A stretch of 64,000 nucleotides of DNA. Source: Thunnus maccoyii (lineage: Eukaryota > Chordata > Actinopteri > Scombriformes > Scombridae). This document shows positions 32,219 through 64,000 of the stretch, piece after piece (within the stretch, counting starts at the first letter, position 1; each line of letters starts with the position of its first letter). The DNA lies in assembly GCF_910596095.1 (NCBI RefSeq), contig NC_056548.1, positions 7,217,151-7,281,150 on the forward strand. The letters are read 5' to 3'. Position numbers and translations under genes: made by a program. The notes below the pieces were generated by a model. That model did no database searches, was not told where the DNA came from, and was given only the letters and a program-made list of their open reading frames with translations.

Positions 32219-42508
<10,290 letters not shown>

Positions 42509-47818: not shown

Positions 47819-50800
47819 CTACATCATGACGAGGCCTCTTCTTGCACCAAGCATATTCGCTTTCTTCTGCTTCCGGTCCTCAGTGTGATTTGCTCTTCTT
47901 TCCTCCCTTAAAATACAGAAATATCCATAAGAGACTAATGTTGTAACAGTTAATTTTTTATGACAGATGAATCAGTATCAATGCATCTTTTTAATTTCGG
48001 ACATACCTTGTCTGGACTTTGTGCTGTTTGTAATTTTTCTGATGCGAGTCTGAGATCAGCGACTTGTTTCCTGCTGCGTTTTCTTTGACCTCTCCAAACG
48101 GCTTCAGTTTACCTAACAAAGAGGGGAGGAAAAACATCAGGTTATTTAATGTACTGATGCTGCAGTATACCTCAGTGAATCATGGAAACTGAAATATGTT
48201 TTGTACCTGTATGAGGCTTGTAGGTCAGGGGACGAGACAGACTCGCCTTCAGATCAAAGTTAGACTTCTTTTGGGTTCCAGGGGTTGTTATAGTGCTTGT
48301 GTTGCCAGTGAAAACGAAAGGCCCTTTGGAATAAAAATAAATCAATCAATCACCTCAGTCTATCCATACCTGTAGGCAAGTTCAAATGTCACAAGTGAAG
48401 TTAAAAAAAGTACTTGGAGTCTTTGTAGCAGAGAAAGTCTTGACATCGTTGGGCTTTCCTCCATCTCCGGTCTGTTTTTGTGGGGTACTCGAGGTCACAC
48501 TGAGTGACATGCGTGCCGGCGTTTTCACCAAGGACTTCTTATGCTCATTGTCTTGAGTGGCTTCAGAGAACCTGCACCCAAACACAATGAGTTGCTGTAG
48601 CATCATACAGTATTAAAGACTACTCATATAATGTATTTAATTTTTAACATCTAAGAGATTACACCAAGAAAGCCATGGATGAGCGAAGGTCAAGCAGGAA
48701 GCAATTTGTCCATGAACAACAAGGGGCTGAAAGATCCAACACTTTACAGCAGTGTCTCATTACTTGCTAACTTTCCAAGTTCCATGTAAAACGAACAGCT
48801 GAAATATGACAGTATTTGGCTGCTGAAATTCATGTCTATCCCAGCAGGAAGAAAGAGTGACTCACCGAACATTGATCCTGCGAGTGGAAAGGACAGACGG
48901 TCTGAATGGAGCATCTTTCTTCCCAGCCGGTTTATTTGGGGGAGCTTTACTTGCTGAGTGCAAAGTGACTCTGTGTTTGTCCTCAGCTGGTCTCTTATTC
49001 ACCGTGACAGGGCTGAACATGGAAGCACGACTCGCATTTGCCTTCTGTAGAATATATACATACAAGTTATCACCTTCACTGCACTAAGTAATCAATATAC
49101 TGTATAATTATGGAGGTTCAACATGTGAGACTCACTGCTTGAGTTTTGCCATCAACTTGCTGCAGTTTCATTTTGTCTGACGGCATCTACAAAATAAAAT
49201 GAAATATAAATAAATACAATCATTTGAAATTTTATGAATTCATTCAGCCAACCAGGACTGTCTACAAGCTGTTGAGTACCTTTAGTTCTTTAGCTGAATT
49301 TCTGTAAGTCTCCATCTGCTTGGTCTTCCGATGGACATATGAGTCAATGGACTCCATCTTGTTAAAATGTGCCTCGTGGAGTTTTTTGAAGTCTGCAAGT
49401 GACATAATTTACAAAACTTATTTTAAGAGTTTGTGGAAAGTTCTCCAATATATTTTTTGGTCCAAAAGTGATGGAAAAAGAGGAACAGGAAAAAGGAAAA
49501 TAAAAACTTACTAGGAGTGACTGGCTTCAACAAAGCCTTCTTCTTCTTCTGGAGCCGTTCATAGCGGGGGATTTTACCAGCTTTGGCAACTTTTGGTGCA
49601 TTTCCTGGACAGACATTTAATATATATGTAAAATAAAAAGGAATAATATTTGATGATCAGTGATCTTTTAAGAAAGACATCAGAAATCGACAATTACAAG
49701 CTGTCAAACTGACCTGTATCACAATGCACAGGTGCTTCATCTTTGTTACCAGGCTGCTCCTCACTGCTGGAGGCTGGTGGCTCTGTAGGAAGCTCGGAGT
49801 CCATTTTTTCAGAGTCCCTGGCAGGGGACACTCGTCTCTTTTTAGCACCCCTGGCACCGCAGGTTGGACTAGATGCAGTGACTTCAGCCTCACCCTAAAA
49901 GAAACAACAGTGGTTTAAGGGATGAATCCTGCTGAATACAAGGAATTGTACCCACAACAGAATATGCCAGTGCATACCAACTTTGTTTATTTTTAATCAG
50001 TGAAGACTAGAGGATACTTGTATAGAAACATGTGCATACAAACTTGGATTTTGTTTAATATAGAGGTGCTTATTCGATTCAGTGTAGTTGCAGCTGTTAG
50101 TGTCATGTATTGGTTTTAAGTATGTTATAATGTGCTATACCTCTTCTGCACTAGGTGGTAACTCATCACATTCAGTCACTGTTGCAGTATCAGAGATCTT
50201 TCTCTTGGTCCTATTTCCTTTCCCTCGACGTGTGTTCACAAACACAGAGGTGCTGGAATCATCCGTCTTGCAAGTTGCATCTTCACCTCCCTGAGCACTG
50301 TCTTGTGCCACATTTTCATCTTCTTGCACAACATCAGCATCCTTCTCATTTCCCTGGAAAACACCACAGCAATACATGCACACATCATATATAGACAAAA
50401 CAGCCATGGTTTAAAACTGATTGTGTGGTGAAACAGCATCATTGACCAAGAGTTAATTAGCTTACCTGCTCTCCCCCCTCCATCTTTTCTTGTTCATAAT
50501 GCTGCTTGATTGCTTTCAGGAGTTTATCAGCCTGTTTAGGACAAATAATGTTAGCTAGTTTGTTAAAAAAAAGGTTCACAATCTTTCAAGTCTATCTTAA
50601 AACAACAGTCAGATGCCCATATAAAAACTGAAAGAGGTTTTCCTCGTTGTTATCATTCCACCTGTTGCTATTAAAGGATTCTCTTCAAATGTGCTTTCAA
50701 TGTAAGTGATGGGGGACAAGTGTGTCCACACAGTCATTTTGTGCAAAAATGCATTTAAAAGTTTACCTAAAGGTTGTATGAGGCTTCTTTTTAGCAATAA

Positions 50801-51400
50801 ATTCAATCTTTGTGTTTTCCTCGGACAGTGTTTCCCTGTTAAGCTGTGGTGGAAGTATAATAACAAAAAGAGGGAATTGGCACTAAAAAAAGAGACTAAT
50901 ATTGAAAGATATCTACTTGATTTTACTAATTTGGACGGCTGAAGCTTCATATTAGTTTCAGATAAACCTTTAAATATATTTTGTACAGAAGGAGGACTAT
51001 GGATTTTGGTCACTTAACGTTACATTTAACGTTAGTTAAAGTGCATTATGAAGGGATCCTCTAATGACCAGTATGAACAGGAGGAATGATTGACGTTACA
51101 GCAGGAAAAACATATTTCAGTGTTAATTCCCGCTGTTGTTTTAACACAGATTTGAAAAATTGTGAACCCGTCTTTTAAGTGTATTGTATGATATTGGTTA
51201 CACGCATTAACGTTAGCCAACTACCACTTACCGTTAGCGTTACCATACACAGTTGAACAAGCCTTGCCGTGCTACCATAAATAACAACAATTGCTGGGTA
51301 AATTCAAACAATGTAGTTTAATTACCTTCATATTGGCTTTAAGTCCGAGATCCTTGGCGAGGCTTCGTAATTCTGCATATTTCATGGAATCCAAATCCAT
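47819..51400 (-). CDS. nusap1: NUSAP1, nucleolar and spindle-associated protein
   Basis: Microtubule-bundling protein that acts around chromosomes in mitosis. Twelve exons give 479 residues (human about 441): 51326-51400, 50466-50531, 50141-50353, 49714-49894, 49512-49604, 49280-49392, 49136-49186, 48866-49044, 48414-48571, 48207-48323, 48007-48112, 47819-47906. An N-terminal SAP-like segment ([20 protein letters not shown]) is followed by acidic linkers. [20 protein letters not shown] matches the conserved family core. [16 protein letters not shown] and [20 protein letters not shown] follow. A KEN box at about residues 425-427 fits the known APC/C-Cdh1 control of this family. The basic C-terminus ends GARRGLVMM. 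It shares a promoter with OIP5. Confidence 0.96.
50562..51178 (-). mobile_element. MITE with long inverted termini in NUSAP1 intron 1
   Basis: Left end AAGGTTCACAATCTTTCAAG with AAACAACAGTCAG; right end GAAAAATTGTGAACCC preceded by GCTGTTGTTTTAA, an inverted pair. 617 bp. Relatives lie at 60181-60644 and 32941-33041. Confidence 0.75.
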
Positions 51401-51915: not shown

Positions 51916-54900
51916 ATGGAGTTTAATGATAGTCTGTTATCACAACGTAGCACCGATATAAAGCTGGCTACAGAGGTTGAACACAGACAGTGGCTGACTC
52001 TCCACTGCGAGCAATGCAAAACAGTTCTGGGAGACTCCCTCGGTGTTTGTGGGGAAGTCAGATGTATGGACTCGATCATGTGTATCAGTAAGTTCACGTC
52101 ATCTCTCATTCATAATTGTTGACACAGTATAAGTAAAGAAAATAGTGCGTTAGTTGTTCAAATGTTGAAGATATGAGCATAAATCAGCTCATGTTGGTAA
52201 ATGTACCTGTTGTGTACTTCTGTAGTGTACAGTAGTGTAGTAGTGGGGGAGTTGTGTTTATGGTGGCCCTGAGGTGCAAAACACAACATTAGGGCTGCAG
52301 CTAACGATTATTGGTCGATTGGTTGACTAATCGTTGCAGCTCTGCACAATATTTCATTAAACTAATTAAAAAATACTATTAATAGAGAAAAGTGACATTT
52401 CAGAGAACATTTGAAATGTTGTAACATAATTTGGCAAGAAACTCTTAACTCATGGTCCACCGATTAGATGATTACCAGAGCTTTCAACAAGAGCTTTCAG
52501 TCTTCCTCAGTGGATAGAGTTTGTTCAGTTATCATGAAGATAAATTAGTAGACCCAGTTGTCTACATGCTATATGTCTCCATGACAACTGAGCAAATTTC
52601 TCCACTTGACTTAATATATGTTTTTTGGTCGAGCTACTGTCTCCTGGGTCAAAAATGAACTGTGTTTCACATTTAACATACATTTTGTTTTTGATAACAG
52701 TGGTATTTTTTGTTAATATTTTTATAATTGCTTCTTTTTTATGTGAACTATATCTAGGGCTGGGCAAAATATCAATATTATATTGAGATAGATTTTGGAT
52801 ATCGTAATATCGTGATATGGCATAACTGTTGTCTTTTACTGGTTTTAAAGGCTGCATTACAGTAAAGTGATGCAGCCTAAAATGATGTAATTTTCTGAAC
52901 TCACCAGACTGTTCTAGCTGTTCTATTATTTGCCTTTACCCACTTAGTCATTATATCAACATTACTGATGATTATTTATTAAAAATCTCATTGTTTAAAT
53001 ATTTAGTAAAAGCACCAATAGTCATCCCTACAATATTGTCGCAATATTGATATTGGTATTTGGTCAAAAATATTGTGATATTTGATTTTATCCATGTCAT
53101 CTAGCCTGAACCCTGTTACATTTTGCTAATTTGTTTTGTGGCATGTTCATTAAACTATATTTAGCAGGGCTACTAAACCCTCCCTCCACTGGTGATAATC
53201 ACAAGCTCAGTCAAAATATGATATTAATCAACACCTTGTTCATGATTTTCCAAGCCACTCTTTTACAATAATACACCCCATTAACTGCCTCTGAGGGAAG
53301 CACGCTGCTTAAATTACAAAATACTAAATATTTTTAAATAGAAATTTGTCATAGATTTCATAAAAGACAGAAATATTTGGTGCCATTGGTGGTGTTGTAT
53401 CCGTGACATAGTACAAGCGAACATACCATACTATACTGCTCATATTGCAGGTAAGATTTATCCCAGCTATACAGTACCTGAAATGCAGACATTTGAAATT
53501 GCTGCTTATCTTTTTTCAGGAGTAACTGATGATGTGGTCCTCAGTGATGAAATGGAATCAGGACATAAAGGGGAAATGGCTAACTGGTGAGTGAACGCAG
53601 TGATTCTGGATAAAATATGTTCTAGTAGAGGAAAATACTTGTGCATTTGCCTTCAACCCTCAGGTGACACCCACATGTATAAGATGCATACAATAAACTG
53701 CATATCACATATAAATGGCCCTAATATAACATTATGCAATATCAAAGTTAGGTTTAAAATATCAAAATGATGATCTAAAGGGCAACAGGGCAATAATGGG
53801 TTGAGGACAAACTGGATTTTTTTGAATGGGCCCTTGAACAAGGCGGCACACAGATTACAGCTTTAGGGAACAGGTACCAGACGTGCTTTCATATGTTACA
53901 TGTAAAATCTTCCTCCACCACCTGCTAGCAAGCACTCCCACAGGTGATATACTGAGATTAATAAAAAATACTCTTCTTAGTCAACCTTTTGTTTTGCAGT
54001 CATGATCAGGATATGTGCCAGCGTTGTATTTTCTGTCACTGCTCTTGTTTACTTTCAGCATCTACAGCTCTCTAAAATGTCGCGGCTGCCGCTGTGCTGT
54101 GGGGAAAGTCATTCACTCTGCGCCTTCACGTTTGGCCATGATTCGCTCCATCTATCTCCTCCACAAAGCAAACATCAGTTGGTAAGCCCTGCCACTTCTG
54201 CTGAGCACACAAGCATGTTGACTTCATGTGTGCAGGTGTACTGCTGTCTGGAGAGGCTAAAATAAACAAGCGCTGAATGAGTTCAGTGCTTGAATAGCCT
54301 TTTTTTTTAAAAACACAGCAAAGTTCACATAATATTTAGAGGTTGTGCATCTGAGAAATATGCTGTTGTAGAGTTATTTCATTATAAATAAATAAAAATA
54401 ACAACATGCATTTCCTTTCCCTGTTATCCTGTGCAGTTACATCCTCGACAGCTACACAATGGTGAAAGCATCCACACTCACATTTGACCTGAAGCCTCTC
54501 AGGGAAAACATTTATGAGGTGAGAGAGCAAAATGTGATTAACTTGATTTGTGTGTATAATGATTATATTGTGTTTATTATGATTAAGACCTGTATGTACA
54601 ACTGCAGTGCTTCATTTCATTCTTATAGTCATTATATGAGTACTGTTGTGAAATATGACTTATGATTACTGAATGATGATGTGGCCATTTTTATACAAGT
54701 AATTAAGTAATTGTAGATGTTAAGTCTGGTCATTGGTCTGAAGATGGCACCAGCTGCTTTTTAATTTATACTTCTAGATGTTTCCTGACGTGTTCAACAT
54801 TTCAACAGTGACAAACCAGCACTGTGTGAAGAAAATCCAGGCAGGAGTGACAGATACTATTAGCAAAAAAAAAAAAAGCCTTTTACTGAAAACACAAATC

Positions 54901-55015
54901 TCTTCTTTCCCTCCTGCTGCAGATGAGACGACAGTTTGAAGCACAGTTCGATCAGATGACACTCATTAAAAGCAGACTGGCTGACAGGAGTGTTGCAAGT
55001 GAATCAGACAAGTAG
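51916..55015 (+). CDS. oip5: OIP5 (Mis18-beta), centromere licensing factor
   Basis: Subunit of the Mis18 complex, which licenses CENP-A loading at centromeres. Five exons, 51916-52087, 53520-53586, 54059-54181, 54437-54518 and 54923-55015, encode 178 residues. The Yippee-like Mis18 domain shows two zinc-binding CxxC pairs: Cys31/Cys34 (LHCEQCKTVLGDS) and Cys87/Cys90 (SLKCRGCRCAVGKVI). SYTMVKASTLTFDLKPLREN follows, then a short C-terminal helix. In exon 3 the acceptor at 54058 was preferred over one at 54000 because it restores CIYSSLKCRGC in frame. It is shorter than the human protein (229 residues), mainly at the N-terminus. Confidence 0.95.
52291..52345 (+). mobile_element. Minimal GGCTGCAACTAA-family remnant: two termini only
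   Basis: TAGGGCTGCAGCTAACGATT is joined almost directly to ACTAATCGTTGCAGCTCTG. The element's interior is missing, leaving about 55 bp. Confidence 0.75.
52753..53106 (+). mobile_element. MITE with GGGCTGGGCAA terminus
   Basis: Begins AGGGCTGGGCAAAATATCAA and ends with AATATTGTGATATTTGATTT and a degraded terminus near CATCTAGCC. The interior matches, from memory, a very common fish element (GGCTGCATTACAGTAAAGTG). It fills part of OIP5 intron 1. Confidence 0.7.
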
Positions 55016-55968: not shown

Positions 55969-56274
55969 AAATAAATATTAATTGCAGATGTTCCTCTGGT
56001 GCAACCTTCTGAGCACACTTTACATTTTGTGCATCATTAGTGGTGACGATCTAAGAATGCCAATGTCGTCTCTCCATTTTCCATTTAATAATTTTGTTTT
56101 CTGACATGCAACGAGCATTACGGCCTCACACAGCTGCTAGTGAGATCTTAGATTTATGCATTTCTTACCACAAATATGATGATTTACAACATGTAGTTCT
56201 CTAACAGCATTTAAACTGGAAGCAAACATCAACACCCAGCCATCCAATTGGCACCATGCTGCATTTTATTGCTG

Positions 56275-56280
56275 AATTTC
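56275..56280 (-). promoter_or_regulatory. oip5-as1: Cyrano polyadenylation signal
   Basis: TTTATT on the plus strand gives AATAAA in the transcript. It sits between the foldback element and the start of unique sequence, about 1.2 kb from the OIP5 stop codon. Confidence 0.6.
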
Positions 56281-58185
56281 TGATACAGATTCTTTTTTTT
56301 CTTTTTTTTTTTAAAGTTAATACAAAACCAGACAAGAGGCTTACACGTAATAAGCATGCCCATTTCCTCCCTCTGGAGTGCATAGTTTCTACACAGTCCA
56401 CCTCCTCAGTGGAAAAAGTTGATCAACAAAGTAATGTCATTAATCATCTTACATAAGCTTGTGTTGTTTCTTTTTTTTTAATGGGAACAAAGGTTGATCA
56501 CTGTGGCTGTACTGCCATGGTCATGTTTGACACAAGAGAGTGAGAGCAGAAACTACTCTTCATTTTTTGGTGGGGTATTTTTTTTTTTTTGGGGGGGGTG
56601 GTTTGTATCATGACTAGCAGTTAGTCCGTATAATCCAAACTCAAATCAAAGCTACTTCAACATGCTTGCTGTTGTGTCAAACAAACAACCGTTCCCAACC
56701 TTGTCACAGAACATCTGATATGAACATTTCAACATCCTAATTACACTCATTCACATTACAAAGTTAGATTATTGCATGCAATACAAATCATTCATTTTTC
56801 TGCTAATTCATGCATATTTTTTAAACCCATTTAATCATGTTGCTAAACGCCTACTTGCTCATTAATTGTGATTGTAAATCCCCACAAAGAGCATTACAGG
56901 GTTTTTTTTTTTTTTTAGAACACAGTATTCAAGACAGGATGGTGATGATGACGGTGCAAGTCAGTACATAGAGAGAAAGTGCTTTTCAAACAAGTTCGTT
57001 CAGTAAGTCCTTTGCAGCCACAGAGTTACTGAAAGTCTATATTTCTAAAGGAGGGGGAGGGTTTTATAGATTTAAAAATGCTACAAGAATCGTAATTTTA
57101 TTATTTTATGTACTATAAAGCATCTCTCCTGTACCGATTGGTTTAGATTATTGTTTTGGTGCTGAAAGAATACAAGGCAGGGAAGTTAGTCTGTGAAAAA
57201 TATATAAGTATTTACTTTTAATTTGTAAATGTAATAACACCATGATGCTACAGCTGTCCTCACGCATACCTTGTTCTGCAGGAAGTAACCCAAATCTTCA
57301 TAATAATAAGTGATACTGTATTCTAAAGCCAAATATTATACAACTCCCAAAAAAAGTGACTAATAGATAGCTACCGTAGGCATAAAAGAGAGGAAGGGGG
57401 ATCCTTTCCACAAGAGATTACAGAATCTGTTTAACACTTACACCCTGGCACTAAAACTCATGCATTATTGTCGGTTATTGCTTCTAAAACTCTAATCAAA
57501 TACAATTTTATGGATTAAAATATAACGCTCTGAATCCCAAAACTATGAGGTATTATGTACAATACATGGTCATGGTGAGATCTTAATTCTAGGACTAAAA
57601 CGCTACGTTGGATCGCCATCAATCAGATCCAAATCTAGAATTTAAGTACTACTCTTAATGTGACATTTTTCAAATATTTCCACCATTGTCCATTTTGGGG
57701 AGCTTTTTTGGTTGTCACATAATAACTATCTAATTCTTTTGATGCTTTAGAGTGCATGAATACAATTTTGAACATCGCTAGCATTTTTTCCCTAAGAGCA
57801 GCAGTTCTGTGAGAAAGCACTTACTTATATGAAGCATATAGGCCTATGTGAAACGGCTTAAATCAATACTTTATAATTTTATACCCTGATTGTGTTAATT
57901 GGATTTTAATCATGCAACTTATTCTACATCTGAGACATGGAACAAAGGGGAGATTGTCTAAAATTTCTATCTTGATGTGGTGTATTTTAATTGTACATCG
58001 ATCTATCGCCCTTTTTCCATTCGCCTGAAATGTTTTCCACAGTTTTGAGCTCCAGCTTAGTCTAGAAATCAATTTCACTATTCTTCATGAAGCAAGCATC
58101 ACTACTGGTCATGCATGGCAACTATAATGTTGGCACCACAGTCCCGCTAAATAAGCTAATGCACATGAGTCTATATATATCTTAA

Positions 58186-58209
58186 TGGAAGACATTGGTG
58201 ATTTTGTTG
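58186..58209 (-). promoter_or_regulatory. oip5-as1: Cyrano miR-7 target-directed degradation site
   Basis: The minus strand reads CAACAAAATCAC, then CAAT, then GTCTTCCA. The last eight bases pair with miR-7 positions 1-8 (UGGAAGAC). The first twelve pair continuously with its 3' part (GUGAUUUUGUUG). Only a small central internal loop remains unpaired. This near-complete pairing with a central mismatch is the hallmark of the Cyrano site, unlike ordinary seed-only targets. Confidence 0.93.
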
Positions 58210-59994
58210 CTTTCAAACAACTTGTCACTTGTTTATACAATATACAGTTTGGTCAACAACATGACAGTTAAGATCAAATATTGCACAAATCCCGGAAAAA
58301 TGTGATTTTTCTTTTATATAAATCATGTAAAAATGGACTAAAAGAAAGCTGAATAAATGAGACCAGGGTTTCCCTTCAAGTAAGGTCAAATTCAAGGTGA
58401 TAATAGTTTTCAATCATTGGAAATAAAGCTGCAATTTCAGCACTTGTATCTCTCAACTAACTGGACAGCTAGAAACAGCAGGTAGAGACAAAACATGATG
58501 TTTGACAAACCAAATTCTCTTTTTTTTTGTTGTTTTTGGATCGTTTGTTTCATGGTTCGTGGCACTAAAGGAACCAAATGGTCAGTTCTGTCACTACTTG
58601 CAGTTTGTGAAGAATGTTCTTGTGTCACTCATATGGTTAGAAAACAATGAGACTAAAGAGAGCTCACATTGAGTTGGAAAAAAAAAGAACAAAATGAGAG
58701 CATGTCAAAGTCTAAAAAAGGACAAAATCAGAACACATCCAGAGAGGGAAGGCAAAAAAAAAAAAGAAGTGTGTTAAGGAGAAAGAGAAGACAAAGACAC
58801 AATGAAGAGTAAGCCAAGGCGGTAAAAATCACTTCATTGTGGGAATAAAAGACAAAACAAGAGCATCTCGAGGGGGGAAAAGACTAAATTAGATCACTGC
58901 AAATTGCCGAATTGAAGCAATCTCAAAGATTAAGTCGTGTGAATAAACCTGTGGACTTGACAAAAGAGAGCACAATGGAGGGAGAAAAACAAAAAGGAGA
59001 GCACTGATTAAAAAATACAATCTTCCCCAGAACAGATGCGTAGGAGACCACAGTTTCAGCGAGACGGTGTTTTTTTTTTCCTGAACTGAAAGTAAATAAC
59101 TGTGCTTGTTTTGTGGGCTGCTCTGTCTTTCCCTCTACGATATAATGATATAACTGCTGTGGCGCTTGACAACCATTAGGCTACTTGTACTGATCACACT
59201 CCCTTTCACTCCTGTTGGACTTGTTATGGCAATGAGGTAGTGCAAAAAAACGAACAAAAACACCCTATGAGTCTAATTTAATCACAGGCCTTGATCTTTG
59301 CTACAGTATCTTGTGTCTTTACTTTACTCCAAGAAAACGGGAGCAGTTAAGAATTTGTTAAGAAACTGCTTTGATCTAATTACAGTGTGTGTGGGGATTT
59401 TTTTTTGTACTGATTCAGGAAGCATCAGTAACTATGTTTGCATGAAGCCTGACAAGAATCTCACCCAAATCTGACTGAAAATGTCCACATCATGGAGACT
59501 TTTAGGCAAATAAGGCCAGTGCAGATGCTCCATGGCTTTTTCAGCCAACTTAAAGGCTGCAAAGCCACTGTGTAGCTACATGTAGACGTAGTCAGAGCGT
59601 GCGTCATGAAAGTCAGACTAGCCCAAAACCTTGGCAGATGTCCTCACTGATGATCTGAGGCTGCAGAGACGGGCCAGGACAGGAGGGGATGCTGTGGCGG
59701 AGAGACGGCCAACGTCCCAGCAAACAGCAGCAAGGAGGGCACCCCTTGTCCCAAAAGAGGTCATCTTCACACCTCATTCTGTACCACCACGGGTCTGGGT
59801 GGAGGTGGAAGTGATCCGTCATTGGTGCTGAGTCTGATATCTATAGTAGACATCCCTCCAGCCTGGAAAATCCATCCTACAAAAAACACACACACATTAT
59901 TATTATATTATTGTAGAGTTGAGTTTTAATTTGTGAATTTGAATGTAGACAAGACTATATTGATGAATCTGGTCTTCTACATCACAGCTGCAAT

Positions 59995-60644
59995 GTAAGA
60001 TTATTTTCACTGTCGGTTATCTTATTAATTAAGTAAATGCCAATTACATCATGCCTACAGCTCAAAGTGATGTCTTCTGTCTGTCCGACTGACAGTCCAA
60101 AACCCAAAGATATTCAGTTAACAAAAATTTAAAAAACTGAGAAAAACTGCAAATCTTCACATTATATGTCTGCTTGAAAAATCCACAGTCCTTCTTCTGT
60201 GCAAAAATGTATTTAAAAGTTTATCTGAAGCTAATATGAAGCTTCAGACGTCCAAGTGAGTCAAATCAAGTAAATATCTTTCAACGTTACAGTCCTTTTA
60301 GTGCCAAAGTCCCTCTTTTTGTTACTATACTTCCACCGCAGCTCAACAGAGAAACACAAAGAGGGAATTTGCTGCTAAACAGACTAACATTGAAAGATAC
60401 CCACTTGCTTTAACAAATTTGGATGCCCGAAACTTTATATTAGCTTCAGATAAACTTTTAAAAACATTTTTGCACAGAAAGAGGCCGTCATTTACATTGA
60501 CAGCTTAATAGGAAGGGGAACTTGTAATGACCGGTATTGGCAAGAAAGATGATTACAGCAAGCAAAACCATTTTCAAAATTCATTTGGGTACCTGACTGT
60601 TGTTTTAGGGCAGACTCGAAAAAATGTGAACCTATCCTTTAAAC
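59995..60644. mobile_element. Two MITE fragments in the Cyrano intron
   Basis: 59995-60180 has GGCTGCAACTAA-family interior motifs (AAAGATATTCAGTTAAC) without clear ends. 60181-60644 matches the 50562-51178 family and ends ATGTGAACCTATCCTTTAA, lacking its other end. Confidence 0.6.
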
Positions 60645-61389
60645 AATTGATGAATTCTCAAAAAGGTTATACTTTTTATACTTTTTTTGTGGAAAAACCA
60701 TCTCAGACACACATTATTGTTCTAAGCAGATTATTTTTATGTGTCTGAATAGATAGGTGGAGGGGATCTTTAATGTAATTAACACCCAGGACAATATGAA
60801 AGAGGTCATTATTTCATCCAGGGATATTCATTGTTAATGGGTTAAAGTCCACAATGTGGTCATTAATGACACAATAATTTCAGGCCTTGGTGCTCTGACT
60901 GATTTCCATCTAAAGCAGAGTTGTCTGATTTTGAAGATACTGACTTTACAGTCGAAAATCACAATGCATATTCAGTTTTTGAGATTATTTCACCTTTAAA
61001 GTGCATTGCCAATATCCCAAAACGATGAAAAGGTGCAGGTAAATGTGCAAGTTAAAGCTGGTGCATTGGTCTGACATGACAGGAAAAGCACTGACCTTGG
61101 TGGACGGTGGTCCGAAATGATGCAGAGATATTTCCTCAGTGGTTTGAGCTGCAGCTGCACACAATGGTAAACAAAAGCCAGGAGGGTTTCTTCTTTTCTC
61201 TCTACGGTGACACATTTACGTCTCCCAAACTGCTCGGTTGCCGGGTTTATTTCGTGAGAGGGGGACCCCATAGGTTTGAGGACACATTTAAAGAATCTCC
61301 AGCGCCCCCTTTTCCTCCCTCCCTGCACCCCGGAGAGGGGAGGACAGGGAAGAAGCTCCCCTCGTCCCTTTCTCCGTACACCCTCCGCT

Positions 61390-61500
61390 CTACGCCATTT
61401 TCGCTCTGCTACTACGAGCCAACGGAAGGAGTCCGACGATTGAGCGGGAGACCTGTCGATCAAAATTAAATCCCGCCCCGGAAGTACCTTTTTATTCCTC
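61390..61500 (-). promoter_or_regulatory. oip5-as1: Cyrano core promoter
   Basis: GC-rich segment with CCGCCCCGGAAGT at about 61472-61484 (GC box overlapping an ETS site) and, on the transcript strand, AAAATGGCG complementary to 61393-61401 (YY1-like). The combination suits a broadly active TATA-less promoter. The exact start is not determined. Confidence 0.5.
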
Positions 61501-61615
61501 TACTTTATGTAAAACAATGAAATAAGAATTACATTAATAATCTTGAGGGAAAGTTAAGTGCCACAGCAGCACCGTTCAGCACACACCACACACAAAAATA
61601 GAATGAAATAAAATA

Positions 61616-62789
61616 TTTAAAGGTGCAGTATGTAGAATTTAGTGGCAACAGACCAGACTTGGCAGAAATGGAATATAATAGTCATGAGTATGTTTTAAGT
61701 AGTGTATAATCACCTGAAAATAAGAATCGTGTTTTCATTACCTTAGAATGAGCCCTTTATATCTTCACAGGGAGCGGGTCCTCTTTCACAGAGACTGCCA
61801 TGTTGCACTGCCATGTTTCTACAGTAGCCCAGAACGGACAAACCAAACACTGGCTCTAGAGAGGGCCTTTAGCATTTTTTGTATAGACTGTATAAAAACA
61901 ATTTATGTAGCCACTGTGACGTCAGCCATTGGTTTGTGGACTCACGTTTTGAAGCCTTGAGTTTGGCATTTTGACTGTCGCCATCTTGGATTTTTGGAGA
62001 TAGAAGTGATAAGAAGTGCCCATATTTGGACGAGAGGGTGGAGCTGATCCTAACGCTAGCTGCTAGTTTGGTTAGCACATTGCATTAACAGTCTATGGTT
62101 AACTGTGATAATGCGTATTTTCACTAGCAAAATACAGGCTTAAAACCATTAAAACAAAGTGTAGTAACGGAAAAACTGAACATCCGACTCCTTAGAGGCT
62201 CTTTTAGTACAATCAAATGTTGAACGAGACTCTTTTAGATGACCAAAATGTTACAATTAACTTTCATAAACTGAAAACACACTGAAATAGTGGCAGCTAC
62301 GGCTATGCCTATACTCTGTGAATCTAGGGTTACGTCATGTTTATGTTACCTAACCAAAACTGTCGCCATGAGAGCAACTTTATGCTCTAAAGTATACCAA
62401 TTTATAGTCAAATTTAAATTAAATGGGACCATAATTTACAAAATAAACATCATGCTATATTGAAAAAGACTTGAAACTAGCAATTGAGACCGTAAACTCA
62501 TTAGGAAAGTGTTTACTAAGGTAATAAATCAAGTGACAAGTAGGGTAATTTCTCCATAGATTTCTATACAAATGGACTTCTTTTTGGAGCCAGTAGAGTC
62601 GCCCCCTGCTGGCCATTAGAGATTATGCAGGTTTAAGGCACTTCCACATTGGCTTCACTTTTCAGACCTGGAACTATCTGCTTGATTTTTCATTAGTTTT
62701 GCAGAAGGGGAGGGGAGGGTTATTCAATTGTTTGCAATCTGCAACCTCACTGCTAGATGCCACTAAATCTTACACACAGGACCTTTAAA
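61616..62789. mobile_element. MITE interrupted by another element
   Basis: Outer ends TTTAAAGGTGCAGTATGTAG and the inverted CTTACACACAGGACCTTTAA match the 374-bp element at 37611-37984. Similarity breaks off at about 61870 and resumes at about 62698. The inserted 830 bp begins near TGTATAGACTGTATAAAAAC and carries the motif CATTGGTTTGTGGACTCACG, common in fish repeats. Confidence 0.75.
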
Positions 62790-63612
62790 TAATAAAATAG
62801 AAAAGGTTGTTATTATCCATTGTGCAGTACTTATATATATAGTATATAATAAGAGTAGTGGGATAGATTTAAAAAAGTTATCCATTGTGCAATGATTATA
62901 TTCATAGTATATACGATAAGAGTAGAATTATTATTATTATTTTACATTGTGCAGAATAATAATTATATAGTGCAATAACCAGTTATGAGTTATTTCTGAT
63001 GTGAGTCATATACATAGTTTCTTGTGGTAATATTGATTATGCATTCCTGCAAGCCCAAACCAGGTGTTACTTCAGCAAGTGGAATTAGGTATCATTTGGG
63101 TCAGTTGACATGAAATGCCCAAATGCAGTAAGCTAGGTTGACTGCAGGTACCTTTGAGTTGACCATGGCACACACAAGTTGAGGGAAAGCCCCTGCACTT
63201 GCTTATTATTGGCAAGTGCAGGGGCAGCTGCTGATCACGGGTATGGAATGATGTGATTTTGTTGTTTGTGCCCTTGGTGACATGTTTGTGCAGCACATTT
63301 ACAGAGACACAACAGTGTTTAACATCCTAAAACAGAGGTGTGATTTGTTTTCCTTTTATATATTTTTCTTACCATTTGAAATATTTACCAAAAAAATACA
63401 TATAATACATTTGAAGGTCATGAAGACAGTGAGTCACAACAATAAATATCAAACCTACTTATGACTGGGTAATACATCAATATAAAATGTTGATGGAGAC
63501 ATGACACTAAACTAGCATTTTGTTTATCACAATATGCAAAATGCAATAGCTGTTTTTTGTCCACTTGGGGGCAGCAGAAAGTGTTGAACACAACCTAGCC
63601 TAGGCACACAGC
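62790..63612. other. Intergenic, AT-rich
   Basis: No gene is recognised. It contains a short duplicated stretch (TATCCATTGTGCA, near 62814 and 62878) and one perfect hairpin at 63189-63225. Confidence 0.6.
63189..63225. repeat. Perfect 14-bp hairpin, 9-nt loop
   Basis: Arms GCCCCTGCACTTGC (63189-63202) and its exact reverse complement (63212-63225) around TTATTATTG. Confidence 0.9.
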
Positions 63613-64000
63613 CTAGGCTTTAATTAAGGGCACATTTTGGTAGTTAACCAGGAGGCATGCAACTGTGTAGAGTTGATTGATGCTGCCTGTGAGTGAAAGA
63701 GGAATTCCTGTTTTGAATATCTTGTGTTCTTTCACCCTTTGACTGAGTTGCTCAACATGGTCTCTCAGTCTTGTGACAGAATGTGTCTCTGACACAGACA
63801 GTTGTGCCCTCTTAGACAGGACAGTGGGTGTGTAGACCTTAAAGGCACACAGTCCTCCACTAGGAAATCCTTGTCTACCATGATGGCCATTGTTGGTTTG
63901 AGGAGAGACACAACACTAGACTTCTTCAGGATCTCTTTGTCACTGATGGATCCTGCATAAAGAGCTGACACAAAGGTTATTGCCCCATGAGGAGCCATAC
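63613..64000 (-). pseudogene. Decayed DDE transposase (DDE_Tnp_4, Harbinger/ISL2EU-like), continues off-window
   Basis: The minus strand encodes APHGAITFVSALYAGSISDK, then a KPTMAIMVDKDF segment, typical of fish DDE_Tnp_4 transposases (usually GSISDRE...VMADKGF). A downstream frame continues with RLRDHVEQLSQRVKEHKIF, matching the usual RIHVERAI.R.KNF motif. The two parts are in different frames, so there is one frameshift near 63770-63790. The frame ends at 63613. The N-terminal part lies beyond the right edge. Confidence 0.7.

Follow-up and report, generated by a model that had tools for sequence, protein, structure and literature searches.

The closest described counterpart of the locus considered here is Cyrano (also OIP5-AS1 or linc-oip5), a long non-coding RNA (lncRNA) gene of zebrafish, mouse and human, and degradation of the microRNA (miRNA) miR-7 by Cyrano has been reported in mouse, as stated in PMC10899785. 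A 64,000-nucleotide (nt) stretch of contig NC_056548.1 of Thunnus maccoyii, referred to below as the window, carries on its minus strand, from about 61430 to 56245, what is almost certainly the Cyrano orthologue of this 782-Mb genome, judging by its DNA elements, by the order and uniqueness of these, and by the neighbouring genes. The locus resembles the described gene in its strand, in its convergence with OIP5, in an extended miR-7 site, and in the AUGGCG, miR-25/92, Rbfox, miR-153 and polyadenylation signal (PAS) elements, which follow one another in the same order. The predicted transcript of about 4 kb also falls inside the 2.3-10.2 kb given in the text of PMC7798263. Taken as a whole, the stretch is very probably a fish Cyrano lncRNA gene and a likely trigger of target-directed miRNA degradation (TDMD) for miR-7.

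Two other RNAs provide useful comparisons. Libra/NREP, the miR-29b trigger, is likewise a TDMD trigger conserved in vertebrates with one highly complementary site (as described in PMC7798263), but it is a different gene directed at a different miRNA. Cdr1as also binds miR-7; unlike the present locus with its single extended site, it is circular, has more than 70 seed sites and is eutherian-specific, according to PMC10899785.

The Cyrano gene itself was previously known in fish, with the sequences of seven fish species already published (PMC7798263), and T. maccoyii adds one more orthologue. What is likely new is an altered Pumilio-type element and, with less certainty, a further trigger-like miR-7 site elsewhere in the genome. 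The case also illustrates that an lncRNA alignable between fish and mammal over a 67-nt core only can yet be found through a single site together with its strand and the genes beside it, and that short elements taken from the literature can confirm an lncRNA identification made from sequence alone.

The extended miR-7 site and its partners

The sequence-only reading of this DNA had proposed that the span is a Cyrano lncRNA with an extended miR-7 site and a convergent arrangement with OIP5. This proposal is upheld by the unique site and its core, seven of the eight elements named in the LncLOOM study, OIP5 and CHP1 as neighbours, and the presence of genes for miR-7 and ZSWIM8. The site lies on the minus strand at 58211-58186 and reads AGCAACAAAATCACCAATGTCTTCCA. 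Folded with the genome's own miR-7 of locus L002 or L006, it forms eight seed pairs (an 8-mer), a loop of 4 nt (4-by-2 in the duplex) and 14 contiguous 3′ pairs, one of them a G-U, with an energy of -29.5 kcal/mol, an architecture that matches the one published for Cyrano, an 8-mer with 14 contiguous nt of 3′ pairing (as given in PMC10899785, a 2024 review). The miR-7 of L004, whose last base differs, forms 13 pairs with the site at -29.1 kcal/mol, and the diverged miR-7 of L005 forms 13 pairs with a larger loop at -25.7 kcal/mol. The next separate best place for miR-7 in the predicted transcript reaches just -16.6 kcal/mol, and that transcript contains no other 7-mer miR-7 seed match.

A strict pattern of the site occurs at one place in the 782 Mb and its reversed control at none, with about 0.002 places expected from the base composition of the window, while the 301-base core around the site has itself as its sole match genome-wide. 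Pattern scans for stray vertebrate copies of the site gave no place in viral contigs and none in prokaryotic contigs. The literal sequence of the site, sought in several spellings, was not found in the literature.

ZSWIM8 is the ligase of TDMD. The family covering the C-terminal part of ZSWIM4-8 has six matches in the genome, and for two exon frames on C14 the only PDB match is zinc finger SWIM domain-containing protein 8 (7.9e-39 and 3.5e-31). The Rfam mir-7 model finds six places in the genome, five of them above its cut-off; the first 23 nt of miR-7 are intact in four of the six, one of these lying on the opposite strand of the locus. Judging by these matches, the genome has genes for miR-7 as well as ZSWIM8, the two partners in the known pathway. 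Loci L005 and L007 are mir-7-like hairpins with altered mature arms; L007, 58 kb from L006, is the one below the Rfam cut-off.

Conserved elements of the predicted transcript

Nine Cyrano elements are described as kept in all of 18 species except shark, and eight of them are named in the LncLOOM text (PMC7798263). These eight were compared with the minus strand of the span; the two miR-7 elements, whose exact letters are absent from that text, were judged by pairing, and both miR-7 halves are present. In total, seven of the eight occur here, in order and near the published spacings. Near the predicted 5′ end, ATGGCG (61398-61393) opens ATGGCGTAG at 61390-61398 (ATG GCG TAG), which combines the conserved AUGGCG element with a two-codon open reading frame (ORF). 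AUGGCG is published as conserved at the extreme 5′ end, where it opens an ORF of 2-3 amino acids (aa) (PMC7798263); its closeness to the 5′ end here depends on a predicted transcription start chosen by the analysts. In the middle of the transcript, TGTGCAATA (58279-58287), the miR-25/92 site element, stands 67 nt upstream of the miR-7 site, UGUGCAAUA being placed about 60 nt upstream of it in PMC7798263. The Rbfox element TGCATGA (58109-58115), which has the published WGCAUGA motif, lies 55 nt downstream of the Pumilio-type position, the published distance being about 55 nt. At the 3′ end, CTATGCA (56379-56385), the miR-153 site element, precedes by 106 nt the element GCAATAAA (56265-56272), which is both PAS and miR-137 site; the published order is CUAUGCA about 100 nt before GCAAUAAA.

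All five positional elements are found in the real sequence. When the two exons were dinucleotide-shuffled 2,000 times, no element appeared in 1,950 of the shuffles, one in 49 and two in a single shuffle; these figures should be taken as indicative, because the windows searched and the ends of the transcript were chosen after the sequence had been seen.

The eighth element is where the locus departs from the published gene. At 58171-58177, 55 nt before the Rbfox element as in the published spacing, TATATAG stands where the Pumilio-type UGUAUAG is expected, with one base different. With this change from UGUAUAG to UAUAUAG, a Pumilio-type element of deep conservation has probably been lost in this fish.

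Predicted gene structure

Judging by its signals, the locus is presumably transcribed and spliced. The first exon is predicted at 61096-61430 on the minus strand (as are the intron and last exon that follow) from a rise in GC and CpG, the best donor and the AUGGCG near the 5′ end; its start is approximate and was chosen by the analysts. Consensus matrices were used to score splice sites along the minus strand between 56200 and 61500. Within these 5.3 kb, no donor scores above the one at 61095 (AAG/GTCAGT), and the acceptor at 59876 (TTTTTTGTAG/G) ranks second among acceptors, so that both are credible as predicted sites. They delimit a predicted intron at 59877-61095, within which additional exons may lie, and a predicted last exon at 56245-59876, with the acceptor at one end, the PAS at 56272-56265 near the other and an approximate 3′ end. 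The sequence-only reading had described a GC-rich first exon with a donor, a matching acceptor, a last exon of 3.6 kb and an AATAAA. The donor and acceptor agree with this, the last exon measures about 3.63 kb as predicted, and the AATAAA corresponds to the PAS. The first exon is indeed richer in GC than its surroundings (54% vs 38% in the last exon, with a CpG observed/expected ratio of 0.67 vs 0.34) but is GC-rich only in that relative sense.

The predicted transcript measures 3,967 nt, inside the published range of Cyrano lengths of 2,340-10,155 nt (PMC7798263). Its longest ATG-initiated ORF has 77 aa, the mean of 300 shuffles being 75 aa and 37% of them reaching that length, and Pfam gave no match to any of the span's 11 stop-to-stop ORFs of at least 60 aa on the minus strand. 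By ORF length and Pfam, the transcript appears to be without a long conserved ORF, as is characteristic of Cyrano.

Several observations weigh against assigning the locus to Cyrano or to the role of its mouse counterpart. Rfam at gathering thresholds gave no match within the window, so that no RNA-family model confirms Cyrano. The predicted accessibility of the miR-7 site is unremarkable, ranking at the 38th percentile within the transcript. Position +3 of the donor is a C, and the context of the translation initiator of short 5′ UTRs (TISU) fits nine of the 12 consensus positions. The TISU context of Cyrano is called a perfect match in PMC7798263. TGTATAG, the UGUAUAG of the conserved 67-nt core, does not occur on the minus strand of 56200-61500. 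Consensus Pumilio recognition elements (PREs) and WGCAUGA motifs are both fewer than the published means (PMC7798263): one PRE vs 3.2, and four WGCAUGA vs 9.8. Against shuffled sequence, the single PRE compares with a mean of 0.34 and is reached by 28% of shuffles, while the four WGCAUGA motifs exceed a mean of 0.78 and are reached by 0.85%. Since UGUAUAG is listed as conserved in PMC7798263 and not as gene-defining there, membership in Cyrano is kept on the other features.

Proposed role and alternative explanations

In the mechanism that we propose, transcription of Cyrano on the minus strand would start at about 61430, the RNA would be spliced by joining 61096 to 59876, and the transcript would end after GCAATAAA at 56272-56265. 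Argonaute loaded with miR-7 would bind at 58211-58186 by seed pairing and by the extended 3′ pairs, ZSWIM8 would mark this Argonaute for destruction, and miR-7 would then be lost. The Cyrano elements, the neighbours, the miR-7 site and the ZSWIM8 gene together argue that the RNA most likely acts as mouse Cyrano does, as a trigger RNA degrading miR-7, and by this analogy miR-7 decay activity of Cyrano in T. maccoyii is quite probable. In PMC6347452, zebrafish mutants without cyrano, or without its site, are described as viable, fertile and free of overt phenotype, so a strong organismal phenotype is not to be expected.

The same mutants are an argument for a different view, in which the locus is a Cyrano orthologue but serves in fish chiefly as a sponge for miR-7 or HuR, or has no needed role, and does not degrade miR-7. 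Their embryos are normal and the defects of morphants are regarded as non-specific in PMC6347452, which also cites a HuR decoy role, and a miR-7 sponge role is stated in PMC5935738. However, mouse mutants also develop normally although mouse Cyrano degrades miR-7 (PMC6347452, PMC10899785), and the genome encodes ZSWIM8. The predicted transcript offers one miR-7 site, of degradation architecture, and a single site suits a trigger better than a sponge. We consider the sponge or dispensable role unlikely.

It is far less probable that the span is a relic of Cyrano in which the site is conserved and no transcript is made: the changed Pumilio-type element would fit such decay, but elements persist at the 5′ end, in the middle and at the 3′ end with nearly the published spacings, and the site-pattern and core searches of the genome turned up no further copy. 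Equally hard to credit is a long 3′ UTR (untranslated region) or an extension of a neighbouring gene, for which CHP1, upstream on the same strand, would be the source, as about 8.5 kb, with remains of transposons, separate Cyrano from the closest CHP1 exon frame, and the CpG-richer first exon, the AUGGCG near the 5′ end and the locus's own PAS speak for an independent unit.

Neighbouring genes

The convergent neighbour is a five-exon gene on the plus strand at 51916-55015, facing Cyrano on the minus strand as the sequence-only reading had claimed. Its protein matches Pfam Yippee-Mis18 (E 1.3e-23) and three Mis18 sequences in PDB; we take it to be OIP5, rather than Mis18-alpha or another Mis18 protein, from its position and its sequence. 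The Pfam family (PF03226) has four places in the genome, one of which is this gene, and by their sequence the others are presumably two of YPEL5-like type and one resembling MIS18A. Compared with the whole genome, the OIP5 protein matches this locus alone, in five pieces, which argues against a better Cyrano orthologue beside a second OIP5 copy, the alternative that the sequence-only reading had raised. No second copy of Cyrano or OIP5 was found in these genome-wide searches, which score the best candidates only and skip repeats.

On the other side of OIP5, a minus-strand gene starts near 51400, with a sub-threshold SAP match as its only library support; from its sequence we assume that it is NUSAP1. 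Upstream of Cyrano, on the same strand and beyond the window, two exon frames best match calcium-binding protein p22/calcineurin B homologous protein 1 (CHP1; 1.1e-18 and 1.4e-17), the nearer lying about 8.5 kb from Cyrano. The order CHP1, Cyrano, OIP5, NUSAP1 is that of human chromosome 15. For zebrafish, a table in PMC6347452 gives tmem39b and oip5 as the neighbours of cyrano.

A second candidate site for miR-7

A looser pattern of the site matches six places in the genome: four mir-7 hairpins, the Cyrano site and one 3′ UTR on contig C4. The C4 site (L012:1501-1521) combines a 7-mer seed with 11 contiguous 3′ pairs (-25.8 kcal/mol) and lies about 55 nt past the stop codon of a reading frame of the MDFI family (Pfam MDFI 2.8e-11). 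This 3′ UTR may hold a second miR-7 trigger; about 0.25 places are expected genome-wide from the base composition of the window, and the site may therefore be due to chance. Literature joining TDMD, miR-7 and MDFI was sought and none was found. The combined proposal, that loss of the Pumilio element would free Cyrano from decay driven by Pumilio without loss of its miR-7 trigger, and that the MDFI-family 3′ UTR may carry another trigger, is speculative and unlikely.

Repeats around the locus

The predicted Cyrano intron holds a partly self-inverted repeat (60178-60643 of the window) that recurs at 50563-51007, in an intron of the presumed NUSAP1 gene, with 77-86% identity, and at 32948-33041. 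Between Cyrano and CHP1, transposase fragments of DDE_Tnp_4 type occur in two reading frames, at 63613-63915 and at L009:2316-2750; the fragment inside the window lies just below the Pfam cut-off (24.7 vs 24.8 bits). Upstream of the Cyrano promoter, 61612-61867 and 62708-62798 show about 85% identity to adjoining parts of 37602-37988 and are perhaps the two ends of a single mobile element.

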